A DNA stretch of 64,000 bases from Fabrea salina. Taxonomy: Eukaryota; Ciliophora; Heterotrichea; Heterotrichida; Fabreidae. Where the stretch lies: positions 168,501 to 232,500 of the forward strand of contig JALIHJ010000042.1 of assembly GCA_022984795.1 (NCBI GenBank), given 5' to 3'. Of this stretch, positions 11,141 to 61,747 are shown one piece after another; position 1 is the stretch's first letter, and each line of letters begins with the position of its first letter. The position numbers were made by a program, and so were the translations under genes. Below the pieces are notes generated by a model. The model saw only the letters and a list, made by a program, of their open reading frames with translations, ran no database searches and was not told the DNA's origin.

Positions 11141-12835
11141 CTAAGTAAATCCAGGGATAAGCTTTTCTTCCAAGTCGTTCTGTGAAGGTTTCTTGGCAAT
11201 ACTCTTCTTCCTGACTAGGTTTTTAGCTCCCCACTTTTTTTTTCTTTCGAAAGAGGTCATGATATGGTCCCATAAAGGCTTGTTAACAACTCCGTTTACA
11301 ATGAACCCTGCGTTCTCCTGGAACCTTTTGACCAGACACTCAGTTTTTTTTCCGTAGTAACCGTCTAACTTGCTGCGTACGTTCATAATGCTGCTTAAAG
11401 CTTCTTGTAGCAACTTAACGTCAGAAGGGTCGTTTGGTTTGTTTTTGGAAAGTTGTTGTTTGAGAGGAGGGAACTGGATGTCGTCTTTTTCCTGCATGAG
11501 TTCTAGTACGGACTTAATATGCTCTTTGCACTCTTCTTTTTCGTGTTCAATTGGCGAAATGTTTCCACTTGAAAAGGGCGAAACCTTGTGTTTTTGGATC
11601 TTATGCAGGTTTTCTAGTGAAGACACTGAAAAGGACAAGTTCAGGGTTTCGTAGTGTTTAGAGTCAGTTAGTTTTTCTTGGATGCTTGCTGTGAGTGAGT
11701 TAGTGAATTCTTCAGGCAAGTTTAACTCGCAAAGAATCTCTTTTGCAATCTGTGAAGGAGTGTCTTGTGAAAGGTTGTAAGGAAACTCCACCTTAAGGAT
11801 CTTAGTGCCCTCTGAGTCCCTGATGCCTAAGCGTATGCTTAAGTTGAGTTCTTCAAAGGAACTACTTGGGTCTGGCTTCACTTGGGCAAGTGTGGGTGTG
11901 TACTTTTCAACAGAGCAGTCTTCAACTACTTCCACAGGCAAGTGGAGTTTTCCTGGGTTTTCCTGGGCTGAAAGGAAGCTGTGGTTTAAGAGTTCTTGTG
12001 CACTAGGGCGTTGGCTGCCAGGGAGCAGGCACAGATTCAAGAAGTCTTTGACTTCTGCGTCTAGGATTCTGTGTAAGCCAGAGGGCTTTACTCCTTGGCT
12101 GATCTTTTTGTAGATTTCTACTGGAGTTTTGCAGTCTGAGTAAGGAACACTAGAAGTAACTATTTCCAACAAGCACAGTCCAAAAGACCATATGTCAGCA
12201 CTTGGTCCGTAGTGCTCTTCAAAAACTTCAGGGGCCATGTACTGAGGAGTGCCTATTATGGTTTTGGTGTACGAGTTCTTCATAAAAGTAGACTGCCCTA
12301 AGTCACCAATTCTTAACTCGCCAGTGGCTGAACTCACAAAGATGTTGTCAGGTTTAAGGTCTCTGTGGATGATGGCGTAAGGCTTAGTTGAGTGTAGGTA
12401 GTGAAGCCCCCTCAGTATACTCCGACACCACTGCTTAACTACTTTTAAGTGGGGTCTCTTAAACCTTTTCAAGTACTGCTTTAAAGAGCCTCCAGTCATT
12501 ATTTCTGTAATGAAAACTACCTGGTCTTTGTTGTACCAAGCACTTTTGAAGTTTATGATGTTTTCATGGTTGAGTTGCTGGATCATCTTGATTTCGTCCC
12601 TTAAACTTTCAAGTTCTGCCTTCGTCATTGAGTTGGTTTTCATCACGTTCCAAGCCACTTCGCAACCTGTTTCGTTGTCAAAAGCTTTGTACACATGCTT
12701 GAAAGTGCCGCTTCCGATTTCTTCATTTAACTACTTAGAACTTACCTTGATGTACCTGCCTTTCGGAGACACCTCTACTGGTTCGCACTTGAGCTTTCTA
12801 GTGAGTTCTTTTAAGAACTTGCCCTGCAGTTCCAT
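11141..12835 (-). CDS. WNK-family protein kinase with C-terminal peptidoglycan-binding-like domain
   Basis: Two exons: 12835-12746 (30 codons) and 12730-11141 (529 codons plus TAG), 559 aa in total. The intron 12745-12731 interrupts the very start of the kinase domain; splicing restores GRYIK-LNEEIGSGTFKHVYK. The lysine lies in the glycine loop (Lys41 in TFKHVY) and the usual VAIK lysine is replaced by Asn58 (EVAWNVM). This is the diagnostic WNK arrangement. HRDLKPDN, GDLG and MAPE motifs are intact. A second region (about residues 290-355, LNLSIRLGIRDSEG..QDTPSQIAKEILCEL) resembles the PF/OSR1-C domain that binds RFx[VI] peptides in WNKs. The last 75 residues (VKLLQEALSS..LDGYYGKKTECLVKRFQENAG..GVVNKPLWDHI) match the pattern of a PG_binding_1 fold. 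WNKs control ion transport and osmotic response through SPAK/OSR1 kinases. Confidence 0.9.
12731..12745 (-). other. 15-nt spliceosomal intron
   Basis: On the minus strand it reads GTAAGTTCTAAGTAG, in phase 0, with A at position 10 and a terminal in-frame TAG. Its reality is strongly supported by protein homology. It splits the WNK glycine-rich loop region, and both sides are needed for a complete kinase domain. Confidence 0.93.
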
Positions 12836-16989: not shown

Positions 16990-17012
16990 TTAAATTCTTA
17001 GGATGCTTGAAG

Positions 17013-18265
17013 TCATATTAAGTTAACTGAGTAGTGCGAGGACTGCTCGCTTCTTAAAGTCGAAACTTCCTTTGCCGTTTTAAGGTTCCAGATTCTAACT
17101 GAGTAGTCTCTGTAAGTGCTTGAGGAAACCAAGTACTGGCTGTCACTTGACAAACTCACTGATAAAACTTTTTCAGAGTGACCATTGAGTGTCAGAATTC
17201 TTTGTCCAGTGGCAACTCTCCACGCTTTAATGGTTTTGTCATCTCCTGCAGACACTATGAACTGCTCATTGCTAGAAATAACAACTGAGTTCACAGTTTC
17301 ACTATGACCTCTTAAGACTTTGTTCTGCTGTCCGGCCCAGATCCTAACTGTTTTGTCGCAGCTTCCTGAAACTAAGAAGCTGTCACTGTTTGAGATTGCT
17401 AAACAAGTCACAGATTCATTGTGGCCCTCTAGGTTCTGAGTTTGCTGCCCGTTCCACACCTTAATGGTTTGTCACGGCTTCCAGAAGCTATGAAGTTGCC
17501 TCCTCTTGAAATAGCCACTGCATTCACAGGGCCAGTGTTCCCCTCTAGAACTTGAGTCTGCACTCCAGCGTTCAAGTTCCGAACCCTAATGGTTTTGTCG
17601 TTGCTTCCAGACACCACAAAGTCATTTCCGCTAGAAATAACTACTGAGTTGACTTTGTCCGTGTGGCCTTTTAAAACTAAAGACTGCTGCCAAGTGTTGA
17701 GGTTCCACACCCTCACAGTTCTATCTTCACTTCCAGATACAATAAACTGCTTGCTATTAGACACAGCTATTGACCTTACTGCTTTTTCGTGGCCTTCTAT
17801 TGTTTTAAACTTCTTTCCGCCTTTCCAAGTTACTATTTTGCCTCCAGAACCACTTGAAAGTACCAAAGAGTTAAGTTGCAGCAGTAAGTCTTCGAGCTAG
17901 TCTAAGTCTTTGCTTTGTGACTGTTCGAGGTTGCTTAGTTCTTTGAATGCTTGATTGTAAATAGTTTTTGAAATGTTAGCACTGAGTCGGTCGGCTCTTT
18001 TTTGGAAGTCTTCAAGTTGGGCTAGTTGGAATGACACTAACTTTCCAATTTGCTCGTTTAAATAGTTTCCTCTTTGGATAAGTTTTTCTTTTTGTTGGGA
18101 AATTTGAGTGAAAACATTTGAAAACGAATTCACCATTCCAGCTTGGGTTAGTAGTTGCACAGAGTGGCTTTGTATCATGTGGCATCTCATTGTATGGGAA
18201 CACAAAAACTCCCGGCATTCACACTGTGCAAGAGGCTGGCAGTTCTGGAAGCAGTAACTTTCCAT
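17013..18265 (-). pseudogene. Zinc-module/WD40 family member, broken by a stop and a frameshift
   Basis: It is the third of three tandem paralogues. The frame starts MESYCFQNCQPLAQC and carries the family zinc module and helical region. It hits TAG at 17897-17899, exactly where the two sister genes encode Gln (KDLDQ). The frame continues after the TAG into propeller blades. Near 17467-17471 one base is missing from a T run (TTT here, TTTT in other blades), moving the rest into another frame until TGA at 17013. Read across both lesions, all seven blades are recognisable. No 15-nt intron could remove the TAG. Nucleotide identity with the neighbouring gene is very high (for example 17330-17400 against 18570-18640), so duplication is recent. 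A sequencing error could explain the base loss but not both defects. Confidence 0.75.
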
Positions 18266-18271
18266 TTATAG

Positions 18272-19513
18272 TTATATGAATTTGATTGAGTAGGGATATA
18301 CATTATCAGTTGTTTGAATTTGACTGGCCGTTTCAAGGTTCCAGATTCTTATTGAATTGTCTGCAGAAGCTAAGTACTTATCATCACTTGATAAGTTTAT
18401 TGATGAAACTCTTTCAGTATGCCTGAGAGCTAGAATTTGTTGAGCAGTAGCAACACTCCATACTCTGACAGTCTTATCTTCGCTTCCAGACAGTATGAAT
18501 TCCTCATTGTTAGAAATAACAACCGAGTTCACAGCACCAGTGTGACCTCTTAAAACTTGGCTTTGCTGTCCATTCCAGATCCTAACTGTTTTGTCGTAGC
18601 TTCCTGAAACTAAGAAGCTGTCACTGCTTGAGATTGCGACTGAATCCACATGACCAGTATGACCCTCTAAGCTTTGAGTCTCTTGACCATTCCATACCCT
18701 GACTTTATGGTCCCAACTTCCAAAAACTATGAACTTGTTATTACTCGAAATAGCTACTGATACAAAAAAGCTAGTATCTCCCCTAAACATTTGAGTTTGA
18801 GACCCAGTAGAAATATCCCAAACTCTTACTGTTTTATCATCTCCACAAGAAACTATAAATTCATCGTTACTAGAAATAGCTACTGAGTTGACTTGTTCAG
18901 TATGGCCAAATAGAACTCGTATTTGTTGAGCAGTGATTATGTTGAATATTCTAACTTTTTTATCAGAACTCCCAGTCACAAAAAACTCCCTGCTTTTAGA
19001 CACAGCTATTGAGTTTATCTTTTGATTATGTGCTTTCGTTCTTCTAATCTCTTCTCCGTTCTTCCAGACCTTCACATCACCTAATATATTTCCATAAATA
19101 ACTCCAGTACTCAACGCTAAAATAAGTTTATCTACTTGATCTAAATCCTTGGTTTGCATGTCTTTCAAGCAATAAAGCTCCTTGAAAGAATGATTGTAGC
19201 TATCTTGGGTCAGCTTGGACATGCCAGAAGCTATTTCGTTCATTCTTCTTTCAAACTGCTCAAGTCGGGCTATTTGAGAAGATACTAACTTTCCAACTTG
19301 TTGAGTCAAGTAAGTGCCTCGCTGAACAATATTTTCCTTGTATTCAGAAATCAAACCAAAAATACTGGGAAACGAATTCACTAACCCAGTCTCAGTCATG
19401 GACAACGCAGAGTGCCCTAGAATCATATGGTGTCCCATTGTATGGGAGCACAAAAACTCTCCGCACTGACACTTCACAAGAGCCTGGCAGTTCTGAGCAC
19501 AGAAACTCTCCAT
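18272..19513 (-). CDS. Zinc-module, helical region and seven-bladed WD40 propeller protein
   Basis: A 413-residue intact member of the family. Residues 5-34 hold an eight-ligand Cys/His module: Cys5, Cys9, Cys15, Cys17, Cys22, His24, His29 and His34. Residues 45-140 are helical (FGLISEYKENIVQRGTYLTQQ), recalling the B-box plus coiled-coil order of TRIM proteins. From residue 145 to the end come seven WD40 blades, each close to the pattern GHT-x-x-V-x-SVAISS-(N/S)-D-x-F-(I/L)-VSGS-x-D-K-T-V-R-(V/I)-W. The blades are far more alike than in ordinary WD40 proteins. The start ATG overlaps the stop of the upstream paralogue by one base (TAATG). No catalytic domain is present, so an adaptor or recognition role is likely, though the partner is unknown. 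Confidence 0.85.
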   Translation of the reverse strand: MESFCAQNCQALVKCQCGEFLCSHTMGHHMILGHSALSMTETGLVNSFPSIFGLISEYKENIVQRGTYLTQQVGKLVSSQIARLEQFERRMNEIASGMSKLTQDSYNHSFKELYCLKDMQTKDLDQVDKLILALSTGVIYGNILGDVKVWKNGEEIRRTKAHNQKINSIAVSKSREFFVTGSSDKKVRIFNIITAQQIRVLFGHTEQVNSVAISSNDEFIVSCGDDKTVRVWDISTGSQTQMFRGDTSFFVSVAISSNNKFIVFGSWDHKVRVWNGQETQSLEGHTGHVDSVAISSSDSFLVSGSYDKTVRIWNGQQSQVLRGHTGAVNSVVISNNEEFILSGSEDKTVRVWSVATAQQILALRHTERVSSINLSSDDKYLASADNSIRIWNLETASQIQTTDNVYPYSIKFI

Positions 19514-20807: not shown

Positions 20808-22753
20808 ATGGTGCAAACAAAAATCAGGGTGATTCTGGGAGTTAATATTTTAGTACTGGCATCAATTAGTTTGTTTGGTACTCTTAAAAGCAAAGAAATA
20901 GTCACTCCAGACACTGTACACCTTAGAAGCTCAGAGTACTTTGAACCTAAGTTCTACATTGACACTCTTGATTACTTAGATCACTTCCAAATAGCAGCAC
21001 TCCTTCCTGCTACGGCTATTCTTTATCTAAAGGAGGAAAACTGTTTCCTTACAAAAGGTTTCCAAAATGTTCAAGCTTGCTTAGAAAACCTCCAAAGGAA
21101 ACATTGAACTTTACTACCAAAATGGATAATTGAACATGAGCAAAGGAAAGTACTTAATGGGGCCTAGACAGAACAAAACAATGTCGAGTCCTATTTCTGA
21201 GGAATGGCAACCTTTAGCTTACAAAGAACCCCAAAGATTAGAGCCTCAAACAGAATTTGCCTTAGGAGCCTGTGGAGAGGAATTCAACATAATGCAGACT
21301 TTTCCAAGGTTCAAACAAGAAGCCTACAACAGAGCTATAGGGGTTGCCAAGTCTTTGGAACTTAAAAAGGAAAAGCCTTTGCATATACTTATGTTGGGGC
21401 TTGACAGTTTCTCAAGGAGCCACTTCTACAGAAAGCTTATAGGGACCATAAGCTACTTAAGAGAACTAAGTTTAGAAAGCAACTGGGAAGTTTCTGACTT
21501 TACATTGCATAACATTCAAGGAGCAGACACCTCGGAGAACCTGTCTTTTTTCTTAGGAGAGTACTTCCAAAAAGGCTCACTAGGCGGAGAACCTATTTGG
21601 AACTTACTTAGAAGCAAAGGCTTCGTAACTATGATGGGGTTTGACTCTTGTACTTACAAAATATACGAAACTCTAGGTGAAAATCCCCAAACAGACCACT
21701 TAGTTAACTCCTTTTACTGTGCACTCTCTAGAATAACTGACCTTCCTCAGCGTAAAACAGAAACCGCCCAGAAGTATGTAGGAGACCACATGGCCCATTA
21801 GTACTTAATGAATTACATAAGCCACTTTTCTAAGATCTACAAAGGAGCTAACCAGTGGATATACGCGCACTTTGACACAGCACATGAAATAACTGGGCAG
21901 CAAGGCCAAGCACTTGATGACGACTTAGTTGAGTTCTTGAAGAACTACTTCAAAGCCCACTCAGAGGACGCCAATGTAGTAGTTTACCTAGTTGCAGACC
22001 ACGGAATGAGGTTTGGGAACTTTGGAACTGACCCTGAAGCTATTCAAGAACACAGGCTGCCTGCTTTCTTTCTTTTGACTCCAAAAGTATACTGAACTCT
22101 ACAGACTCTCCTCTAGCACACAACTCGCAGAAACTTACTACCAAAGGAGACCTTAGGAGGTCCATATTCTTCTTAGTTAAGTGGCAAAGGAGCTAGACAT
22201 TCCCAGTGCTTCTCAGTACTACGACTTGTTTTCAGAAAGAATCCCTGACAACAGAACTTGCAAAGATGCTCACATTCCTGAGTGGTTTTGCTGCACCAAC
22301 GTAATGAACCCTATATCTTCAAAAGTCTACTTACCTAGGAGATTGTATAGTGACGAGCACAGGGAGATGCGTGACGTCCTTGATACTATAGCTCACCAGA
22401 TGGTGCTTGAGATGAACGAAAGTACTTTACCTGCCGAAGAACTATGCAGAAGACTTGAATTTGGTAAAACAAGAGCTGCACTCTACAGAGAGTTGGACTC
22501 TTCCAGTGTTTTGTTTAGAGTTGTGATCAGTGTAAGGCAAAACACTCTTCCTAGATTCGATGCTTGGGTTATAACTTCAGGTACTAATGGTACTGGGTTG
22601 TTTCCAATCACTTATAAAGGAGTGACTGTTTATGCTAAACTTATCTACACTGAAAGACAAGACTCTTTCAAAGGTAAGTGCGAAAGACTTGCTCAGTCTT
22701 TTGGAGTAAACCCTAAGCATTGCTTGTGCCGCAAAAATGCTTTGGACATTTAA
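20808..22753 (+). pseudogene. Decayed DUF229 (sulfatase-like) membrane protein gene
   Basis: Four frame segments together look like one DUF229 protein of the alkaline-phosphatase/sulfatase superfamily. An N-terminal signal anchor (IRVILGVNILVLASISLFG) is followed by LMLGLDSFSRSHFYRK, LHNIQGADTSENLSFFLGEY, YLVADHGMRFG and the C-terminal Cys motif NRTCKDAHIPEWFCC. The frame is broken by a shift between 21060 and 21130, TAA at 21127-21129, TAG at 21799-21801, and shifts near 22087-22130 and 22180-22205. No 15-nt introns of the local type fit these points. DUF229 proteins have the metal-dependent phosphatase/sulfatase fold; their substrate is unknown. Heavy decay is unusual in this otherwise compact macronuclear DNA. 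Confidence 0.7.
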
Positions 22754-23604
22754 CTTTAAGATAACCGGGGTTTTTCAATAGTTATAGTCTTAGTTATTCT
22801 AGAGTCGAACAAAAGACCAAAAAAACAACAGCAGAAGAAATTGACAAGTTTTACCCAAGACACGAAGAGAGGCCTGAAAACGGTACACTGACGTTCCCAA
22901 ATCACGAAGATACACGAACGCCACTTTATAGGAAAAGAATGGTTGAAGAAAATGACAACCAAAAAACTTAAGAACGAGCGGGGCCTAGCTACAACAACCA
23001 AAAAATAATAAATAGTCTTAGTTATTGCATAAGAATTGGTTTTACGCTTGGAAGCTCGGTTCCTGATTCCCTCACTAGCCATTTTTAGGTTGTTGAGAAA
23101 ATTCAAAATCCCTTTTGACACACTCACTTGGCAGTTAAAATGGGTTTTAAGAAGCATGAATCATTCCTGAGCTCTTAAATACCCTGTGGGCTTTTGGGAA
23201 GGATCAAGTATCCACCCAGAAGAGTAATTATTATAAATAAACAGCCTTAGGGTGTGGAAGAATTGATTATTTTCTAAGTCCAAGACAACTAAGACTTAAA
23301 ACCAGAATTGGTCAGAAACCCTGGGGCAATCCCAATATGCAAGGACTTTGGGACCCCAAGGGGGAAAGCTGGGGCCGCCTTTTTTTTGTCCTCCCCGGGG
23401 TCCCCCCTTTCTTTCCCAAAGGGGGGTGGGGGGTCTCCTTTCCCCCCCCCCCCTCCCCTCCTTTTCTGTTAGGGGGGGGAGCAACCAGGGCCCCGGGCCC
23501 CCGCCGCGGGGGGGTGGCGCCCCCCCCCCTTAATAATCCAGAATTGCCATAAGTGGATACTTAACATTAAGCTTTTAACTTTACCACTTTATGATACAAT
23601 TAAA
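22754..23604. other. 850-bp gene-poor stretch with G/C homopolymers
   Basis: This is the longest region without a clear gene. About 22770-22975 on the plus strand is open without an ATG and its translation (AEEIDKFYPRHEERPENG) looks somewhat protein-like, perhaps a remnant. A 14-bp repeat (TAGTCTTAGTTATT) occurs near 22785 and 23011. 23340-23530 is dominated by runs of G and C. The last 50 bp return to A/T-rich sequence and lead to the next ATG. I see no RNA gene. Confidence 0.6.
23340..23530. repeat. Low-complexity G/C homopolymer tract
   Basis: About 190 bp of alternating poly-C and poly-G runs of 4-13 bases, including mixed GGGG/CCCC stretches. Nothing like it occurs elsewhere in the window. 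It could be a true secondary-structure element but looks more like low-quality sequence at an assembly junction. Short open frames in it are compositional accidents. Confidence 0.75.
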
Positions 23605-26146: not shown

Positions 26147-26617
26147 TTATAAACAAAAGGTAAACCCAAGGTCTTTAGTCTCAAGTTGTTGGTAGAGCTT
26201 AGTTGCTTCTTCGAAATGCTCAGTGCTTTGGTTCTCTAGGGCTTGAAGTTGGTTGCTGAACCCCAATTGGTTGATTATTTGCTCGAAAGTGTTGGTAGAT
26301 CTGACCTGATTGATCCGATCAATGGTTGAATGAATAGTAGACTGGGACTTAAGTAGGTCACTCTTTAGTTGTCCAAGTAGAGTGAGCTGCTCAGAAGTCA
26401 CTCTCTCAACTTCTGAGATGATGAGAGTGCTTAGTTGGATGACTTCCAGTTTTTCGCGAGAAATCATCCTCAGCACTTCGTTGACTTGGTCACTTTGAGT
26501 CAGAGGGCTAATAAAGTGGCCTCGAGTAGCATGACTGAGAAGTATATGCCCACACAGTAACTCTCCACAACTGCATAAAGAAATAGCTCTACACATGGAA
26601 GAACAGTTGGGTTGCAT
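26147..26617 (-). CDS. Stand-alone zinc module plus helical region, no propeller
   Basis: A 156-residue protein starting MQPNCSSMCRA. The eight ligands are Cys5, Cys9, Cys15, Cys17, Cys22, His24, His29 and His34, with the family spacing. It continues with a helical region (RMISREKLEVIQLSTLIIS, SEQLTLLGQLKSDLLK) as in the WD40 members but stops after LETKDLGFTFCL. The KDL at the end falls about where the full-length genes read KDLDQ and enter the propeller. It is either a truncated family member or a real single-domain partner able to oligomerise with the full-length proteins. The following sequence shows no WD40 blades on this strand. Confidence 0.68.
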   Translation of the reverse strand: MQPNCSSMCRAISLCSCGELLCGHILLSHATRGHFISPLTQSDQVNEVLRMISREKLEVIQLSTLIISEVERVTSEQLTLLGQLKSDLLKSQSTIHSTIDRINQVRSTNTFEQIINQLGFSNQLQALENQSTEHFEEATKLYQQLETKDLGFTFCL

Positions 26618-28661: not shown

Positions 28662-30614
28662 ATGGAGTCAGGCGATGTTAGTAATCTTTTAGGAATAAAG
28701 TCAAAACAAACTCACCAAAGCAAGGTTGAAGTCTTTGAATTAACCCAAAAACAGGACTTCCCAGAACTTCCTATACAAAGCCTAAAAAGGTTAAAAGGAG
28801 AAAAACTAAGTCCGAATTGCAAAGCTTTTGAAACTAAAGGCGAGTGCTTCGCACTGGCTGAAAAAAACCAAATTAAGATTTTCAAGAACTTCGAAGAAAA
28901 GTCTTACTCTGAAGAAAACGTAGTGGAACTAGCCTTTTCAGTGGACTGCAAACTACTGGCTTTGCTCAAAGACTCTGAAATAAAAGTCATCAACATTGAA
29001 GACGGCAAGGAGAGTCAAGTACTTAGCCGAGAACTCCAAGAAAGACCCATAACTATGAAGTGGAGCTGCAACAAACTCTACTTAGCTTTTAGACAGAAAA
29101 TAAACACTTACGGAATCAATGGAGTTTACTCTGAGTTTGAGCCTTTTTTGGACAAGTACTTAGATGTACAGGTTTTTCCTAACTCAGAAGTTGTTTGTTT
29201 GCGTTCAAAAAAAGAAATTCTGCTGCAAGACACTCAAGAAATCATTTCAAGGGTTTCAGAAGACGAAGAAATCGGGGACTTTTGCTTGGTACGCGAAAAG
29301 TGCGTGTGCTACTACTTAAAAGGTTCTAGAGTGGTTAAGTTCTACAACACAGAGTCCAAAAGAAAAGACTCTTTGCAACTCAAAAGCAGTGTAGACAAAA
29401 AATTACAGTTCTTTGAAGACCAGTTGTTTATAGTTAGTCTTGAAGGCAGAAGAGTCATTGTTTTCAACTTGGATAAGTCACTGAACATCTTAAGTCATAT
29501 ACAGTACAGTACGGACTACAACATTTTGGACTCTAAAGTTGGACTCAAGCATAAAGAGGGTCAAAAACACCTTCAGTTATTTGTGAACCACTCTAATAGT
29601 GTTTGGTGCTACTCTATTAAAAAGAAGTTCACTAAAAAGGCACTTAAAGAAACTGATTCTTCAGTTGAGGACTTTCGTGAGCCTGAGGCAACCCAGGAAG
29701 AAGAGCCTGGTGAGTCTGAGCCAACCCAGGAAGAAAAACCTGGTGAGTCTGAACCAACCCAGGAAGAAGAGCCTAATGAACCAACTCAACAAAAAGACTC
29801 TTGTAAGCCTGAACCAACCCATAAACACCCCAGTGAATCCAAAACAACTCAAAACTGTAGCCAACACCAAGAAAAAGCTCCAGATAGCTTTGGCACTAAA
29901 CCAGAAGTAACCAACATAAAAAACCAAATTGACCAAAAATTCCAAGAAATAGAAAACAGCATTCGAAAAGTCTTTAACGAAGACAACATCAGAAGCATCG
30001 TCAAAAAAGGACTCCTAAACCCAACTTTGAAACCAGACACTAAAGAAGTGCTTTATGAACTGCTTCAACAACAAAAAGAAACCTTAAACTCCTTAGAAAA
30101 ACTAACTGCAAACACCATAAAACAAAGCAAGTTGCTTAACCACCTTCAAAAGAAACCACAACCCCTTGAAACTCCACAAACTAAAGACACCACCAAACAA
30201 GAACTAAGCCTTTCTGAAGAAAAAATCACCCAAAACTCCCTAGAAAAACCCTACCCTAAGAACTACCTTGGGTACTTCGACGTAGTGAACTACTTAGTGG
30301 AGTCCCATAGGTACAAAGAAGCCTTTAAAACCCTCCTTGCAACCCAAGACAGCGACAAGTTAATTTTGTTCTTACTAAGAGTTAACTACGAATTCTTAGT
30401 AAGTTTAGACTCAAACGACTTACTGAGTTTAGGAATTTGGGTACTGGACTTGATCAGTAAGTGGGACTTTTTAAAGGGATTTGAATGGCTAAAAGAAATT
30501 GCTGAAAGGTTTAAACCCCAAGACCCCAATGCACTTTCTTTTTGTCAAATCTTGCAAGACAAAGTTGACCAAAGATTTGACAAAGTCATTGAAATCCTAA
30601 GTAATAAACTTTAA
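28662..30614 (+). CDS. EDC4/Ge-1-like mRNA decapping scaffold
   Basis: A 650-residue protein. Residues 40-325 form a diverged WD40-like beta propeller (CFALAEKNQIKIFKN, LAFSVDCKLLALLKDSEIKVINI). Residues 340-400 are acidic with 11-residue repeats around EPTQEEEPGES. A coiled coil follows (NIKNQIDQKFQEIENSIRKVF), then a C-terminal helical domain (VESHRYKEAFKTLLATQDSDKLILFLLRV..LLSLGIWVLDLISKWDF). Propeller, linker and this helical domain are the order in EDC4 (Ge-1, Varicose), the scaffold joining Dcp2 to Dcp1 in P-bodies. The C-terminal A-F-x-x-L-L-A-x-x-D segment is the best evidence. It shares its stop palindrome TTAA with the convergent ABHD gene. Confidence 0.62.
   Translation: MESGDVSNLLGIKSKQTHQSKVEVFELTQKQDFPELPIQSLKRLKGEKLSPNCKAFETKGECFALAEKNQIKIFKNFEEKSYSEENVVELAFSVDCKLLALLKDSEIKVINIEDGKESQVLSRELQERPITMKWSCNKLYLAFRQKINTYGINGVYSEFEPFLDKYLDVQVFPNSEVVCLRSKKEILLQDTQEIISRVSEDEEIGDFCLVREKCVCYYLKGSRVVKFYNTESKRKDSLQLKSSVDKKLQFFEDQLFIVSLEGRRVIVFNLDKSLNILSHIQYSTDYNILDSKVGLKHKEGQKHLQLFVNHSNSVWCYSIKKKFTKKALKETDSSVEDFREPEATQEEEPGESEPTQEEKPGESEPTQEEEPNEPTQQKDSCKPEPTHKHPSESKTTQNCSQHQEKAPDSFGTKPEVTNIKNQIDQKFQEIENSIRKVFNEDNIRSIVKKGLLNPTLKPDTKEVLYELLQQQKETLNSLEKLTANTIKQSKLLNHLQKKPQPLETPQTKDTTKQELSLSEEKITQNSLEKPYPKNYLGYFDVVNYLVESHRYKEAFKTLLATQDSDKLILFLLRVNYEFLVSLDSNDLLSLGIWVLDLISKWDFLKGFEWLKEIAERFKPQDPNALSFCQILQDKVDQRFDKVIEILSNKL
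29685..29777 (+). repeat. 33-nt in-frame tandem repeat, about three units
   Basis: Units start at 29685, 29718 and 29751 and encode variants of EPTQEEEPGES. They lie in the linker of the EDC4-like protein. The nucleotide sequence is nearly identical between units, so the copy number is likely to vary between strains. Confidence 0.8.
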
Positions 30615-31723
30615 TTATCCTCTAACACAGTTTCTAAGAACTCAACAACCGGGTAGGAGTACCAGCGTTGGGGGGCTTTGACTCCAGTGAACCAACCAAT
30701 GTGTCCTCCAGCCCGTGTAGTTGCCAGAATAAGGTTGGGGTTTGACTTAAATTCTTCGTAAGGAATACAGTCTTTAGTAACTACAGGGTCGTCTAAGGAA
30801 CTCAGAGCCAGCACGGGCACCTTGATTTTTTCTAAGTAGTTCACACAACTTACTTGGCGGTAGTACTGCTCAGGGTTCTGGAAACCCAGAATTTTGCAGG
30901 TGATTCTAGAGTCATACTCCCAGCTCCGAGTGCTTTTTAAGGTCTCTTCTAAGTCCACACCTAGTTCTTTCAAAGGCTCAAGTACTTGGATGTTGGGTTT
31001 CAGCGAGTCCAAAATGGTTGTTACCAAAAAGTTGTCTGCTATGTACGAAGTCGGCCAGGGCTTTCTTAAATAACGACTGCAAATTACTATATCGAAAGGA
31101 GTCGAAACTGCTGCCCCTGCTTTTAGGGGACAGTTTTCACCAGCTTCGCCTAAGTACTTCAGTAACAAATTGGCTCCCATTGAAAAACCTACCCCAACTA
31201 TGTGGGCTTCAGGGTAGGAGTTCTTTATATGCTCAACTGCTTGTGCAAAGTCCTTAGTGTTTCCTAAGCAGTTAGGAAGTGGAGTAGTGAGGGGTGTGCC
31301 GTTAAGTCCTCTGCCATGCACTACCACAACACTGTATCCCTGCTCTGCAGCAATCATGGTTATGTTCCTTACGTAAATAGACTCGCTGCCTCCAGTTAGT
31401 CCAGGAGCTACGACTAGGATTTTTTGGTCTCCATTTCTGGCCCAGTCGAGCCCAAGAGTCCCTCCGTCTTTTAACGTGAAAAGCTCCCTTTCAAAGTTAC
31501 ACTCACAGTCCTTTTCCTCAGGAGTGGCTGCACAGCCGTAGTAACTCTGCAACAGGCCACTTGACAGCCAAGGTGTAGGCTGGAATATTTCATCCTTGAG
31601 ACTCGGACAGTTTTGGATGATTTCTTTGTTCTTTTGGTTATCGTGGCAGTAAAACTTGATTTTGTTGTCCACAATGGGATAAGCTACGTACGCACCAGCA
31701 CTTGCAAAAGCTACACGAAACAT
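30611..31723 (-). CDS. ABHD1/ABHD3-type alpha/beta hydrolase
   Basis: A 370-residue hydrolase. An N-terminal hydrophobic segment (VAFASAGAYVAYP) suggests a membrane anchor. The fold starts with VVAPGLTGGSESIYVRN, where the LTGGSE oxyanion loop is typical of the YheT/ABHD1-3-15 family. The nucleophile is in GVGFSMGANLLLKYLGE, the acid in LSSLDDPVV and the His in AGGHIGWFTG. In animals ABHD3 cleaves medium-chain and oxidised phospholipids; that activity is possible but not shown here. It is convergent with the EDC4-like gene (overlap of four bases) and divergent from the TBC gene (65 bp). Confidence 0.88.
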   Translation of the reverse strand: MFRVAFASAGAYVAYPIVDNKIKFYCHDNQKNKEIIQNCPSLKDEIFQPTPWLSSGLLQSYYGCAATPEEKDCECNFERELFTLKDGGTLGLDWARNGDQKILVVAPGLTGGSESIYVRNITMIAAEQGYSVVVVHGRGLNGTPLTTPLPNCLGNTKDFAQAVEHIKNSYPEAHIVGVGFSMGANLLLKYLGEAGENCPLKAGAAVSTPFDIVICSRYLRKPWPTSYIADNFLVTTILDSLKPNIQVLEPLKELGVDLEETLKSTRSWEYDSRITCKILGFQNPEQYYRQVSCVNYLEKIKVPVLALSSLDDPVVTKDCIPYEEFKSNPNLILATTRAGGHIGWFTGVKAPQRWYSYPVVEFLETVLEDN

Positions 31724-34694: not shown

Positions 34695-36332
34695 ATGGAG
34701 AGTTTTAAGAAAAAGAGCTATAAAGTAGTTTCTGCAGGCGCTACTACTGTAGAAAACGTTGCAAAGCCTACAGTGAAGCATTCACACAAAATACTTCTAG
34801 AGGGGTCTAACCACATGCTTGACGGGTTCTCAGGGTTCTTGGAGCAAGTAGACAGAGGCACTGGAAAAAAGGCTTCTTGGGTAATGCTTACTTAGTTCTT
34901 CAGAGGAATAAAGAAGTTTGCCAGAGGAATACACAAACTTGCTAGCTATAGCATCATTTCCAACTACCAGAACTCCATGGACAGCTTAAGTGTCATAGAA
35001 AGGGGTTTGAACTACCAACAGCTTAAAATGGAAGACTACTTCAAAAAGCACGGGATCAACCTCCACGAAAGTTGGGTGTTTTCTTCAGAAAACAGAGAAA
35101 GCATCCGAGAAATCACTGAGTTCATTAAAGAAAACACCAAAGACTGCTCACAAATCCCCTACCACAGGATCTGGCAGTACTTAATGGCCTACATAGTTCT
35201 CCAGCGAAAAGCCAGAGAGGTACTTTGGAACCCAGTCGTTTTGCAAAGGACTCCAGAACTCGAAGGAAGACTCCAAGAAATGGCTACTTTTTCTACATAC
35301 GCTGTGGGAATCTACGGAAAGTTACTGGTCAGAGTTATCATGCAAGAAAAGCTTCTGGACTTGTTCCGCTCAATTACTGACCACGAGATCTTCAGAATGT
35401 ACTGCGACCTCCAAGTCAAAGACGTTATTTACCACCAAGCAGAGTCCCGCAGGTTCATTCCTGCACATGCTTTGTGCTTCGATCACCCTAACAAAGCACT
35501 TGTAATTACTATAAGAGGAACCATGTCAGTCTTTGACTGCTTGAATGACCTCAAAGCCAATTACGAAGAGTACCAACTCAAAGATCCTTTTAGCGAGCAA
35601 GTCCTGGCAACTGGAAAGGTCCACTCAGGAATTCTGCTTTGTGGACAAAACTTAGCAAAGGAACTGAAGCCTTTAGTTATGCAAAACTTAAGAGAAGACT
35701 ACAAACTTGTAATAGTAGGACACAGTCTGGGGGCAGGCACTGCAGCCTTACTCAGTTTAACTTGGCTTTCAGACCCAGACATTATGCTCCACGGGTTCCG
35801 CACTTATGCCTACGCACCCCCTGCAGTGGTGTCTTCCGAACTAAATCTTTACTTAGAGAACTACGTGACCTCGTGTTGTTTTGGGCATGACATAGTTCCT
35901 AGACTTTCCTTTGGAACTATCAGGGACATTTGCGAACTAATCAAAGGGTTTGAGGCAATCCAGACCCAAGACAGACAACTCAAAGCATCAGTAATAGTAA
36001 GTAGAGTGTTCTACCAGGGCAACTTGGACGATTTTGAGTTGTTGGAGCTCTACAAAGAACTTAAGTCCCAGATGGTCTCGCCTAAACTAGAACCTCCTGG
36101 GTATATCTACCAAATGTTCCAGAACTCCAGACACAAAGACTTTAAAATGATTTCTGACCAGCCTAGTTTGTACTCAGGCGAGTTCCTGGAGGCTTCTTTT
36201 TACAAGGAAGTAGTTTTCTGCAAAACCATGATAAGCGACCACGTGCCTGACCAGTACGAAAAAGCCTTGAAGTCCCTGGTTCTAGGGGACCAAACCCAAC
36301 TTAAAGCCTTAGAGGATGAACTTACTAACTAA
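34695..36332 (+). CDS. Class 3 (DAG-type) lipase, one 15-nt intron
   Basis: Exon 1 is 34695-34880 (62 codons) and exon 2 is 34896-36332 (478 codons plus TAA), 540 aa in total. The intron 34881-34895 is in phase 0 and removes the only stop between the frames. The hydrolase domain begins around ALVITIRGTMSVFDCLNDL, the oxyanion segment of class 3 lipases. The nucleophile is in VIVGHSLGAGTAALLSL, the Asp probably in LSDPDI and the His near CCFGHDIVPRLS. The nearest characterised group is the diacylglycerol lipase-type enzymes, which release fatty acid from sn-1. The N-terminal 100 residues are basic and amphipathic (FRGIKKFARGIHKLASYS), which suggests membrane association. The next gene starts six bases after the stop. 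Confidence 0.88.
34881..34895 (+). other. 15-nt spliceosomal intron
   Basis: The sequence is GTAATGCTTACTTAG, in phase 0, with A at position 10 and terminal in-frame TAG. Splicing joins GKKASW to FFRGIKKFARG. Confidence 0.85.
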
Positions 36333-56092: not shown

Positions 56093-56127
56093 TAGAATAA
56101 GTAATCCTTTAAAACTAATTACTATTG

Positions 56128-58608
56128 ATGGACAAGAAACCAAAAGTCAATAAGGAGACAGGAAAAAAAGCAAGTTTGGTTCCTTGCTCAGTATACGTCC
56201 GGATTCTTCCCGAGATGGCAGAAGGAGGCCACGGAACAACAGGTGAACCTGCAGCTTCTAAGGAACTCCAAGGATGGGATACCAATTCTGTAATTGTTGG
56301 GTGGAGAGGAAGCTACTCAAGTATAGGCCAACCTCTTAAAAACGGGAAGAAGTACAGGTTTCCGAAAGTAGTAATACCCCCTGAGGCCAGTCAACAAGAA
56401 ACCTACGAAACTATAATCTCTCCCCTACTAGATAAGTTGCTTGCTCCAAGTGGACAAGCTCAGGACGCAATGGTTTTTGCTTATGGGCAAACAGGCACAG
56501 GCAAAACTTATACCATGATGGGTCCAGACTTCAGTCTTGACACAAAACCACCTGAAGGAATTAACCCTTACTGGGGCTGCTTTCCAAGGGTAGTCTACGA
56601 TGTGTGGTCGTGCCTAGAATCTTCAAGCAAACCCTTTGTCCTTTGGATGAGTGCAGTTGAGTTTTACCTCATGGAAGGCAAAGACCTACTACAGGGTAAT
56701 ACGCCTGTTTGCATGTCAACCGACAACGAGTTGTTGGGAACCAAAAAAGTTATACTTCGCAAACCAAGCGACGTAATTGACATTTTAAATACAGTAAGAA
56801 GAAACCGCCATACTCGGTCAACTAGGATGAACAAAGCTAGCGATCGCCACCAAGGGTCTTCCAGAAGTCATGCTGCCCTAATTCTGAGTGTAATGCGTTT
56901 TGAAGGAGACTCAGACAAATATATCGAAACGAAGTTCCACTTAATTGACCTTGCTGGAGCAGAGAGACCCGGCAAAAATGGTGCAGAACGCATGAGTGGA
57001 ATGGAAGCGTATAGTGAAATCCTTAAAGACCCCACTGGCAAAAACATAAGTATAGGTTGCCAAGCTGCATTGATCAACTATGAACTCTATATGATTGGGA
57101 ACGAAATGATTACAGCAACTGAAACCCACCGGGCAGGAAAATCTTACAGCTGCAAGGCGCTATTAAGCACCCATACTGTAAGGTTTCTTGGAAAATGCAT
57201 TTCAGGGAAGGCTGCCGTAAGCGTAGTTATTTGCCTTTCACAAGCTGCTCAATGCGGATGGGAAACATGGTTCTCTTGTGAGCTGGGAACTCAGTTTAGT
57301 CAGCTGAAGACTCCAAGTACAACCTTTTCTTCAAAAAGCATTTTTAGGACCATTGAATCCATTAAGACCAGCATCGACCAAAAGCGAAAATCCCTAGCAG
57401 CTAATAAAAGGAAACTAGACAGGTATCAAATTCAACGGCAGTGTAGTGTCCTTGAGGACTGTTCCCAGCTTACTACTTTGCGTGAATTACTTAGTGAGTC
57501 CGGTCTGTTTTCGCAAGATGAAATCCCAAGCACTTCCAACATTCCCAAACCTGCTAGTGACGGCTTTTCCTTCGAAGGTTCAACTTTTTCTTACCCTCTT
57601 GAAGAAACCTGGGACTCAGTGGCTCTTTGTGAATACGAAGAAACCGCCGCTTTTTCGCTTCCAGAAATGAACTGGGGAGAATCCCTCAAAGACCAGCGTG
57701 AATTTATGAATGAATTCGTTGAAGCTGATGCCCAAAATTCCCATTCCGAAGTCTGGATGCAAAAAGTAACTACTCAAGTTTTAACCATTGATACAACACA
57801 GTTCAATTCCTGTGACAATCCTGCACTCAAGGTTTACCTGTACAAACCCATTGGTGCTGGACCAGAACTTAAAGCAATAGTATATTGTCATGGAGGTGGT
57901 GGAGTGTTTTTGTCTGCAAGCCACTACAGGTACCACTGTGCACGCTACGCAGTTGAGAACCACGCAGCTGTGTTCAACGTAGAGTATAGACTTGCTCCTG
58001 AAAGCAAGGCACCTAGAGGAATAATGGATACAGTAGGAACTGTTCAGTACTTAGCCCAAAATGCAGTTAACTTAGGCATTAATCAAAGTTTAATTTTCCT
58101 TGCGGGTGATAGTGGAGGTGGTTACATTGTAACTGGTGCATGCATTGAACTTACTAAAAGAGGACTTTCTAGTCTAGTTAGACTTTGCATTGCGATTTCC
58201 CCACAAGTGAGTGACATGTTTATCAGGCCTGGTTTTGAGGTGAAAGGAGTTGAATCCCAAGAAAAAGATGTTTCGAAAAGGATTCATAACTGGTTAACTC
58301 CTTCAGAAGCTCAAAAGAAAAAGGACTCTAGACTTTGGGGACCTTGGGACCCAGCATATGTGTACCCAACTAAGATGTCAACCGAAATTGCAAGAAACTT
58401 TCCGCCTACTGCAATCATAACAGCAGAGTTTGATTTTTTGAGGAGACATGCAGAGGAACTTGGAGCACTTCTCCTCTCTCATAAACGCCTTGTGGAGTTT
58501 GTTGTCCACCCTGGACTTACTCACGGTTGGAACTTCAGTATGTCCCATCCCAAAAGTGACATGTACTGGTCTGATTTCAGAACTATTGTTGAGATAAACT
58601 CCTCTTAA
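56128..58608 (+). CDS. Kinesin motor fused to HSL-type alpha/beta hydrolase
   Basis: An 826-residue protein in a single open frame, starting at ATG 56128. Residues 20-400 are a diverged kinesin motor: VYVRILPEM, P-loop GQTGTGKT (120-127), switch I HQGSSRSHA and switch II LIDLAGAERPGKNG. Residues 400-430 could be a short helical neck. After an acidic linker (about 500-550), residues 555-826 form an alpha/beta hydrolase of the hormone-sensitive lipase family: oxyanion motif HGGGG (588-592), nucleophile Ser662 in GDSGGG, Asp769 in AEFDFLRRHAEE and His799 in THGWNF. All catalytic residues are present. A motor carrying an esterase/lipase would be able to act on lipid or ester substrates along microtubules. 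I know of no such architecture among named kinesin families. Confidence 0.9.
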   Translation: MDKKPKVNKETGKKASLVPCSVYVRILPEMAEGGHGTTGEPAASKELQGWDTNSVIVGWRGSYSSIGQPLKNGKKYRFPKVVIPPEASQQETYETIISPLLDKLLAPSGQAQDAMVFAYGQTGTGKTYTMMGPDFSLDTKPPEGINPYWGCFPRVVYDVWSCLESSSKPFVLWMSAVEFYLMEGKDLLQGNTPVCMSTDNELLGTKKVILRKPSDVIDILNTVRRNRHTRSTRMNKASDRHQGSSRSHAALILSVMRFEGDSDKYIETKFHLIDLAGAERPGKNGAERMSGMEAYSEILKDPTGKNISIGCQAALINYELYMIGNEMITATETHRAGKSYSCKALLSTHTVRFLGKCISGKAAVSVVICLSQAAQCGWETWFSCELGTQFSQLKTPSTTFSSKSIFRTIESIKTSIDQKRKSLAANKRKLDRYQIQRQCSVLEDCSQLTTLRELLSESGLFSQDEIPSTSNIPKPASDGFSFEGSTFSYPLEETWDSVALCEYEETAAFSLPEMNWGESLKDQREFMNEFVEADAQNSHSEVWMQKVTTQVLTIDTTQFNSCDNPALKVYLYKPIGAGPELKAIVYCHGGGGVFLSASHYRYHCARYAVENHAAVFNVEYRLAPESKAPRGIMDTVGTVQYLAQNAVNLGINQSLIFLAGDSGGGYIVTGACIELTKRGLSSLVRLCIAISPQVSDMFIRPGFEVKGVESQEKDVSKRIHNWLTPSEAQKKKDSRLWGPWDPAYVYPTKMSTEIARNFPPTAIITAEFDFLRRHAEELGALLLSHKRLVEFVVHPGLTHGWNFSMSHPKSDMYWSDFRTIVEINSS

Positions 58609-60484: not shown

Positions 60485-61747
60485 ATGATCCACATTCCTA
60501 TAAATGGATCAACCTGCCCTCAAAAGTGCAAAGCTATTTCTCATTGTGAATGTGGAGAGTCTTTGTGCACCCACAACATTGTTGACCATGCCACCAAAGC
60601 CCATGTTATTTACCCCGTTACTCGGCAATTGAGTTTGAATCAGTCACTCAAACTAATCTACAAGAAGGAGGAAGAGATCATAAAAGTAAATGAAAGCATT
60701 ATCTCAGAAGTCAAAAAAATGGGCTCCCACCAACTCACTCAACTAGAAAATCTGAGATAAAGAGTAGTTGACTCAGGCATCACTGACCGGGTCAAAGAGG
60801 AAGTAGGTGTAATTGGACCATCTAGAGAACATCTTAACCGACTCAGCGACTTAATCAAGTCACTAGACACCGAAAAGCCCCCTATTGTTTTATCAGGGAG
60901 TGCTGGCAATACGATTAGAGTTTGGGAAGATGACCAGGCTAAAGTACTGGAAGGCCACACTGCCCGAGTTAATTCCTTAGCTGTGTCCCAGAACAAAGAG
61001 GTGCTTGTGTCGGGTAGTGACGACAACACCATTCGAGTATGGAATTTAGTTACTGGCAAAATAGCTCAAGTATTGGAAGGCCACCGCTACGGAGTATTCT
61101 CTGTGGCAATTTCTGGCGACCTAGTGGCTTCTGGCGGTGGGGATGACACACTTAGAGTTTGGAGTTTAGCTTTTGGGCAGCAAACTCTGGTTCTTAAGGG
61201 CCACAGTGATACTGTTAGGTCCATAGCAATTTCAAATAAGGATGAATTTGTTGTTTCAGGCAGCGATGATTGTACGCTCAGGATCTGGAGCTTAATCACT
61301 GGGGAGCTTATTAAAGTCCTTGAAGGTCATAGTGACTGGATAAACTCCGTAGCTGTTTCTAAGAGCGACTTATTTGCTGCTTCTGCAAGTAGTGACCGCA
61401 GTATTAGAGTATGGAGTATTCCTTCTGGAGAGCAGCTTAGAGTTCTTCGAGGGCATACTTTGATTGTGAACTCAGTCGCTATTTCAAGTAACGAGCAGTT
61501 TGTAGTTTCGGGAAGTGCAGACAAAACCATTAGGGTTTGGAGTCTTACTTCCGAAGAATCAATTCAAGTACTCAAAGGACACAGTGGAGAAGTCATTTCA
61601 GTCAACTTATCAAGTGATTCCAAGTATTTAGTGTCTGGAGGTAACATTGCAGACCCTTCAGTTAGGGTTTGGGACCTTAGTAAAGGTCAGCAAGCTCAAT
61701 TGTTGGAAGTCCATTCTCATAACGTGTGGTCAGTTGAGTTTATTTAG
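60485..61747 (+). pseudogene. Zinc-module/WD40 family member with one in-frame TAA
   Basis: The frame starts at ATG 60485 (MIHIPINGSTCPQKCKAISHC) and has a complete zinc module and helical region. TAA at 60758-60760 interrupts it. The reading frame is otherwise continuous to TAG at 61747, through seven WD40 blades ending WSVEFI, with no other lesion. No intron of the local type can remove the TAA. In the neighbouring paralogue the equivalent stretch (LLQTLEEEVDNS) is uninterrupted. A single-base change or a sequencing error would suffice to explain the stop. It could still give a zinc-only product like the 26.1-kb gene, or a propeller from an internal ATG. Confidence 0.72.

Follow-up and report, generated by a model that had tools for sequence, protein, structure and literature searches.

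Kinesins usually hold their cargo through tails and adaptors. The main text of a survey of 1624 kinesins from 45 eukaryotes records 105 domain architectures, the majority of them confined to a single organism, and 1300 of the 1624 proteins without any other domain (PMC2867816); one-off kinesin domain combinations are, by that account, already common in eukaryotes. The words 'lipase' and 'hydrolase' are absent from the same main text, its supplementary list aside (PMC2867816). For Tetrahymena, the available text of one study describes KET1/2, in which a kinesin is fused to a vesicle tethering protein, and KRC1/2, in which a CENP-E-type kinesin is fused to RCC1 (PMC3143110). In ciliates of the Colepidae, the accessible part of another paper describes Carb::Aldo, a fusion of bacterial-type enzymatic domains with an RNAi phenotype (PMC13344042).

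The locus analysed here lies in a 64,000-nucleotide stretch of Fabrea salina DNA (hereafter the window) and encodes a kinesin motor followed by a hormone-sensitive-lipase (HSL)-type hydrolase. It resembles KET1/2 and KRC1/2 in that one gene combines a kinesin motor with an unrelated partner, and differs from them in that their partners, as far as that text describes them, are tethering or RCC1 proteins and not a lipolytic enzyme (PMC3143110). With Carb::Aldo it shares the character of a protist fusion with bacterial-type enzymatic domains, whereas Carb::Aldo, as the accessible part of its description has it, carries no motor and has a function tested by RNAi (PMC13344042). No kinesin-lipase or kinesin-esterase protein was found in the open-access literature among the matches listed, which is consistent with the earlier note's statement that no known kinesin family ends in an Abhydrolase_3 domain, and as far as searched the pairing of the two is a new domain combination. 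The reading we favour, with a probability of roughly one half, is that of a genuine gene fusion whose motor most likely positions the esterase on microtubules or tethers it there under ATP gating, the enzyme cleaving an ester or lipid there.

The open frame and its kinesin motor

Positions 56128-58608 are a real, intact single frame that joins both domains (Table 1). The claim that two domains share one uninterrupted frame stands, with 826 codons from the ATG at 56128 to the TAA at 58606-58608, zero internal stops and both Pfam matches far above their curated cut-offs. The frame is closed upstream by an in-frame TAA at 56116-56118, its 826 open codons would arise by chance at window composition with a probability of ~2e-22, and the five alternative frames across the same positions hold 31-68 stops apiece. 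Scored for start context against the 36 other ORF starts in the window (median 2.94, 5th percentile -1.68), the ORF's own ATG is weak (-2.28), so that its exact N-terminus is less sure; the top-scoring internal ATG (aa 327, context 1.28) lies within the motor. Short GT-AG introns were also considered, and candidates of 14-20 nt occur all along the ORF, the junction between the domains included. None was compelling by eye; the candidate stretches have an AT fraction of 0.45-0.65, and the frame stays open without removing any of them.

Table 1. Features of the fusion ORF, with residues and positions in the window
Feature	Residues (aa)	Position	Strand	Remark
Single ORF, 826 aa: kinesin motor, helical neck, linker and HSL-type hydrolase		56128..58608	+	
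Kinesin motor, Pfam PF00225 match	71-289	56338..56994	+	117.5 bits against a cut-off of 29.3
P-loop GQTGTGKT, intact	120-127	56485..56508	+	
Switch I MNKASDRHQGSSRSH, 6-residue insert	234-248	56827..56871	+	aligned to five kinesins
Switch II DLAGAE, intact	274-279	56947..56964	+	
Diverged C-terminal part of motor; loop 11/alpha-4 enlarged, HVPYRDSKLTRIL lost	291-400	56998..57327	+	
Helical neck, possible short coiled coil	402-458	57331..57501	+	modelled helices and heptad scan
Linker, acidic, Ser-rich, coding-like	459-513	57502..57666	+	
HSL-type (Abhydrolase_3) hydrolase, N-terminal cap helices probably included	514-826	57667..58605	+	start approximate
Oxyanion-hole motif HGGGG	588-592	57889..57903	+	
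Predicted catalytic Ser662 in GDSGGG (aa 660-665)	662	58111..58113	+	invariant in 50-sequence alignment
Predicted catalytic Asp769	769	58432..58434	+	invariant in 50-sequence alignment
Predicted catalytic His799	799	58522..58524	+	at least 90% conserved in 50-sequence alignment

The PF00225 match spans profile positions 38-247 of 327, and the P-loop, SSRSH and DLAGAE motifs that the earlier note had named were all located. SSRSH (aa 244-248) is intact, and the switch I insert, a further divergence that the note did not mention, sits upstream of it. The nearest solved chains to the motor in the PDB are kinesin-1/kinesin-14 chimeras, kinesin-1 and kinesin-5. The protein is thus like the kinesin superfamily in these three motifs, in the order of its motor elements and in having an N-terminal motor followed by a helix; it differs in the 6-aa insert of switch I, in the extra residues of loop 11/alpha-4, in a degenerate loop 12/alpha-5 and in its enzyme tail.

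The reference for the motor alignment was a set of five kinesin motors. Compared with these, loop 11/alpha-4 is ~19 residues longer and the HVPYRDSKLTRIL motif of loop 12/alpha-5 is unrecognisable, and a profile of the five full motors aligned to aa 70-294 only. The note's view that the motor diverges after switch II was borne out: searched alone, aa 281-440 gave no PDB match at E values up to 10, and the part after switch II gave no Pfam match on its own. Against a profile of the C-terminal halves of the five motors, aa 291-410 scored 9.5 bits, a value reached by none of 2000 shuffled sequences (maximum 8.9 among the 1839 reported), and hhalign on the same residues returned P 0.0073 with a probability of just 5%. 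Judging from the sequence, the motor is probably complete, yet strongly altered at the face expected to contact microtubules. Structure prediction of the motor was of low confidence in both models, with a mean pLDDT of 32.3 for the single-sequence model of the whole protein. A kinesin search of IMG/VR yielded 116 pattern matches and, among them, 0 relatives of the first sequence of the query alignment.

With a C-terminal half that is hard to recognise and without the microtubule-binding motif, the motor part is a doubtful tether to microtubules. Its track-binding face is so degenerate that it may be a non-walking tether or switch, and this fits the earlier note's suspicion that the motor may bind microtubules without walking. 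These features bear directly on the strongest competing explanation, a real possibility that we hold at clearly less than even odds, in which the fusion is genuine and the motor is degenerate, serving as a kinesin-fold nucleotide switch, an anchor or a passive N-terminal appendage of what is essentially an esterase. The switch I insert, the enlarged loop 11/alpha-4, the loss of HVPYRDSKLTRIL and the failure of Pfam and PDB searches to recognise the C-terminal half all speak for it. So does the weak codon preference of the ORF, which suggests fast evolution or low expression: its NAC codon share is 68/111, and just 4 of the 35 other tabulated ORFs have a lower NAC fraction. On the other hand, the P-loop, SSRSH and DLAGAE are retained, although one would expect them to be missing from a dead domain, and the C-terminal half outscores every one of the shuffled sequences.

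The HSL-type hydrolase

The second domain is matched by Pfam PF07859 at aa 584-801 with 122.8 bits (cut-off 25), over profile positions 1-208 of 210. The HGGGG and GDSGGG motifs named in the earlier note were both found, and its positions for Asp769 and His799 proved exact. In a 50-sequence hydrolase alignment, which takes in 49 of 80 kept bacterial loci, H588 is also invariant. The structure model derived from this alignment, the second of two models, shows block-mean pLDDT values of 81-98 over aa 561-826, but of 55-66 at aa 701-740, and its top Foldseek matches are TrLipB and a Pyrobaculum esterase (E 4.3e-20; target TM 0.75 and 0.76). The hydrolase half thus models as a complete-looking HSL-type esterase with an alpha/beta hydrolase fold. 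The closest solved structures are the prokaryotic HSL-type esterases 2YH2, 1JJI and 1QZ3. With the bacterial/archaeal-type HSL esterases (PDB 1JJI, 2YH2, 7WOL) the domain shares HGGG, the GDS(G)GG elbow, the Asp and His residues and the fold; it differs from them in having GDSGGG instead of GDSAGG and in being attached to a motor.

The completeness of the N-terminal cap is less certain, and the start of the domain is approximate. Cap helices at aa 517-536 and 539-549 were modelled at pLDDT values of 36-77, and for 9 of the 80 kept loci the alignment to the hydrolase query begins no later than its residue 13. The alignment with 1JJI begins at residue 19 of that structure when the whole protein is the query, versus residue 73 with the hydrolase-only query.

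The best NCBIfam model was LipP1 (NF058653), whose 99 bits fall below its cut-off of 350. A prokaryotic hydrolase search gave at least 591 pattern matches, at least 529 of them encoding relatives, of which 80 were kept. Because best-segment identities to these 80 loci are only 23-33%, no close donor is found among them, and a recent bacterial transfer of the hydrolase gained no support. The domain may be an ancient bacterial acquisition or an old eukaryotic copy.

The junction and the proposed origin of the fusion

Between the two domains the second model places neck helices at aa 402-441 and 445-458 with block pLDDT values of 46-71, and the very low-confidence first model places them at aa 402-441 and 446-457. 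The heptad regularity of this neck is modest, 63 of 2000 shuffled sequences being equally good. The acidity of the region beyond it is seen in a net charge of -10 across aa 452-512.

The spacing of genes in the window bears on how the two halves came together. Neighbouring genes on the same strand lie a median of 31 bp apart (n=22), and at such distances a fusion through the loss of a stop codon would be easy. The same compactness, together with the weak codon bias described above, lends something to the idea of a recent neutral read-through of two neighbours that have no joint function and whose domains act or decay separately. We consider this unlikely, as the neck-like helices and the 55-residue coding-like linker exceed what a lost 30-bp gap would yield, and both halves retain their catalytic or nucleotide-site residues.

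The junction was further examined with a codon score trained on the 35 other ORFs of the window and read in windows of 30 codons. Across aa 461-530 (three windows) the ORF frame scores 0.30-0.48 bits per codon, and the five other frames score at most 0.06. The ORF-frame score is positive throughout aa 421-570 (0.07-0.48); it is slightly negative in five windows, the lowest at -0.15, none of them at the junction, and a reverse frame outscores the ORF frame in at least the windows at aa 441-470, 741-770 and 781-810. GC content is 42-48% over aa 431-540, compared with 42.6% for coding sequence and 36.9% for short intergenic DNA, and is lower at aa 391-440 (37-40%) and aa 541-570 (33-38%). The candidate starts for an independent esterase, ATG 514, ATG 527 and ATG 544, have context scores of -4.37, -1.86 and -4.87, respectively. 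Motor and hydrolase show the same weak preference for NAC codons (32/50 and 28/50), which speaks for the fusion.

With a codon score that is positive across the junction and no start-like ATG near the hydrolase, it is unlikely that a frameshift or a boundary between genes was missed; the frameshift or assembly join near 57,700 that the earlier note had named as the finding that would separate two genes is likewise improbable, as the coding score is positive there and the frame unbroken. That two genes were wrongly joined, because assembly or base calling went wrong or because an intron or gene boundary near 57,700 was overlooked, can draw on the tiny gene gaps, a Met (aa 514) near the expected esterase start, the GC dip at aa 541-570, a messy stretch of the window at 21.1-23.5 kb and the finding, in the available text on Tetrahymena, that roughly a third of the identified fusions proved to be artefacts of annotation (PMC3143110). 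It is nevertheless very unlikely, as no frame change is required, ATG 514, ATG 527 and ATG 544 all have poor start contexts and, according to the same text, 24 of the 25 Tetrahymena artefacts that remained had an intron of more than 413 bp between the domains (PMC3143110), of which there is none here.

For the favoured reading, a genuine fusion with a placing or tethering motor, we infer the fusion history, the tethering, the substrate and dimerisation. Protists offer precedents for such a fusion in the kinesin fusions of Tetrahymena (PMC3143110) and in Carb::Aldo of the Colepidae (PMC13344042). A kinesin gene that evolves fast would have come into one frame with an HSL-type esterase gene lying downstream on the same strand when the stop codon and the intervening gap, probably of only tens of bases, were lost. 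In the product, an N-terminal motor whose nucleotide-site motifs are intact and whose track-binding face has changed would be followed by the neck, the acidic linker and the esterase. Placed or tethered at microtubules by the motor part, in an attachment gated by ATP, the esterase would cleave a small ester or lipid substrate there. A search of IMG/VR for relatives of the whole protein gave 4 pattern matches and 0 relatives.

A bolder version is tentative at best: a kinesin restricted to its lineage would have its own enzyme as cargo. As an ATP-gated motor or tether, it would bring the covalently attached HSL-type esterase along cortical microtubules to membranes, lipid droplets or an esterified substrate, and the motor itself would set the place of lipolysis. 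A motor covalently bound to a lipolytic enzyme would offer a natural test of motor-driven positioning of lipid or ester hydrolysis in cells, and the very short gene gaps of compact genomes are a possible source of new domain combinations.

The surrounding window

The window is gene-dense, with long ORFs without introns and 42.2% GC. A Pfam scan of all 37 of its ORFs, at E-value limits of 1, 0.001 or 0.00001, revealed no second kinesin and no second Abhydrolase_3 domain among the matches listed. Hydrolases of other families were matched, namely Abhydrolase_1/Hydrolase_4 at 30611-31723 and Lipase_3 at 34977-36332. A second unusual domain combination, a protein kinase with a C-terminal PG_binding_1 domain, lies at 11141-12643 on the reverse strand. 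Over the window, Rfam gave 0 matches and ARAGORN 0 tRNAs.

A DUF229-like gene at 21136-22760 has an in-frame TAG at 21799, beyond which, as judged by eye, protein-like sequence goes on, first in the same frame and later in others; a pseudogene, unspliced introns and a sequence error are the candidate explanations. The stretch at 23320-23535 is rich in G/C homopolymers, unlike its surroundings, and is possibly a sequencing or assembly fault. Given the gene with the in-frame TAG and the homopolymer stretch (21.1-23.5 kb), the window sequence can hold faults or pseudogenes. A local WD40 family has members at 18272, 19513 and 62095, a shorter WD40-less relative at 26147, and a further member at 60488-61747 whose protein is intact but for one in-frame TAA at 60758. 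On the reverse strand at 16990-18271, WD40-like repeats are divided between two reverse frames with 155 and 152 open codons, and this is apparently another broken copy of the family.

The 37 ORFs end in TAA 28 times, in TAG 8 times and in TGA once. TGA as a sense codon was considered, and as the extensions it would allow were only out-of-frame or marginal by eye, the standard code was kept. Codons ending in C are strongly preferred across these ORFs for Asp (GAC/GAT 644/159), Asn (AAC/AAT 742/163), Tyr (TAC/TAT 548/92) and His (CAC/CAT 262/102); the preference is weak for Cys (216/169) and absent for Phe (379/477). Asp, Asn, Tyr and His are the amino acids with queuosine-carrying tRNAs. Because the preference falls on these amino acids, the lineage may lack or underuse queuosine modification. 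The optimal codons of the Heterotrichea covered by a published account, two Stentor species among them, all end in A or T according to its available text (PMC10384029), unlike the C-ending preference for Asp, Asn, Tyr and His in the window.
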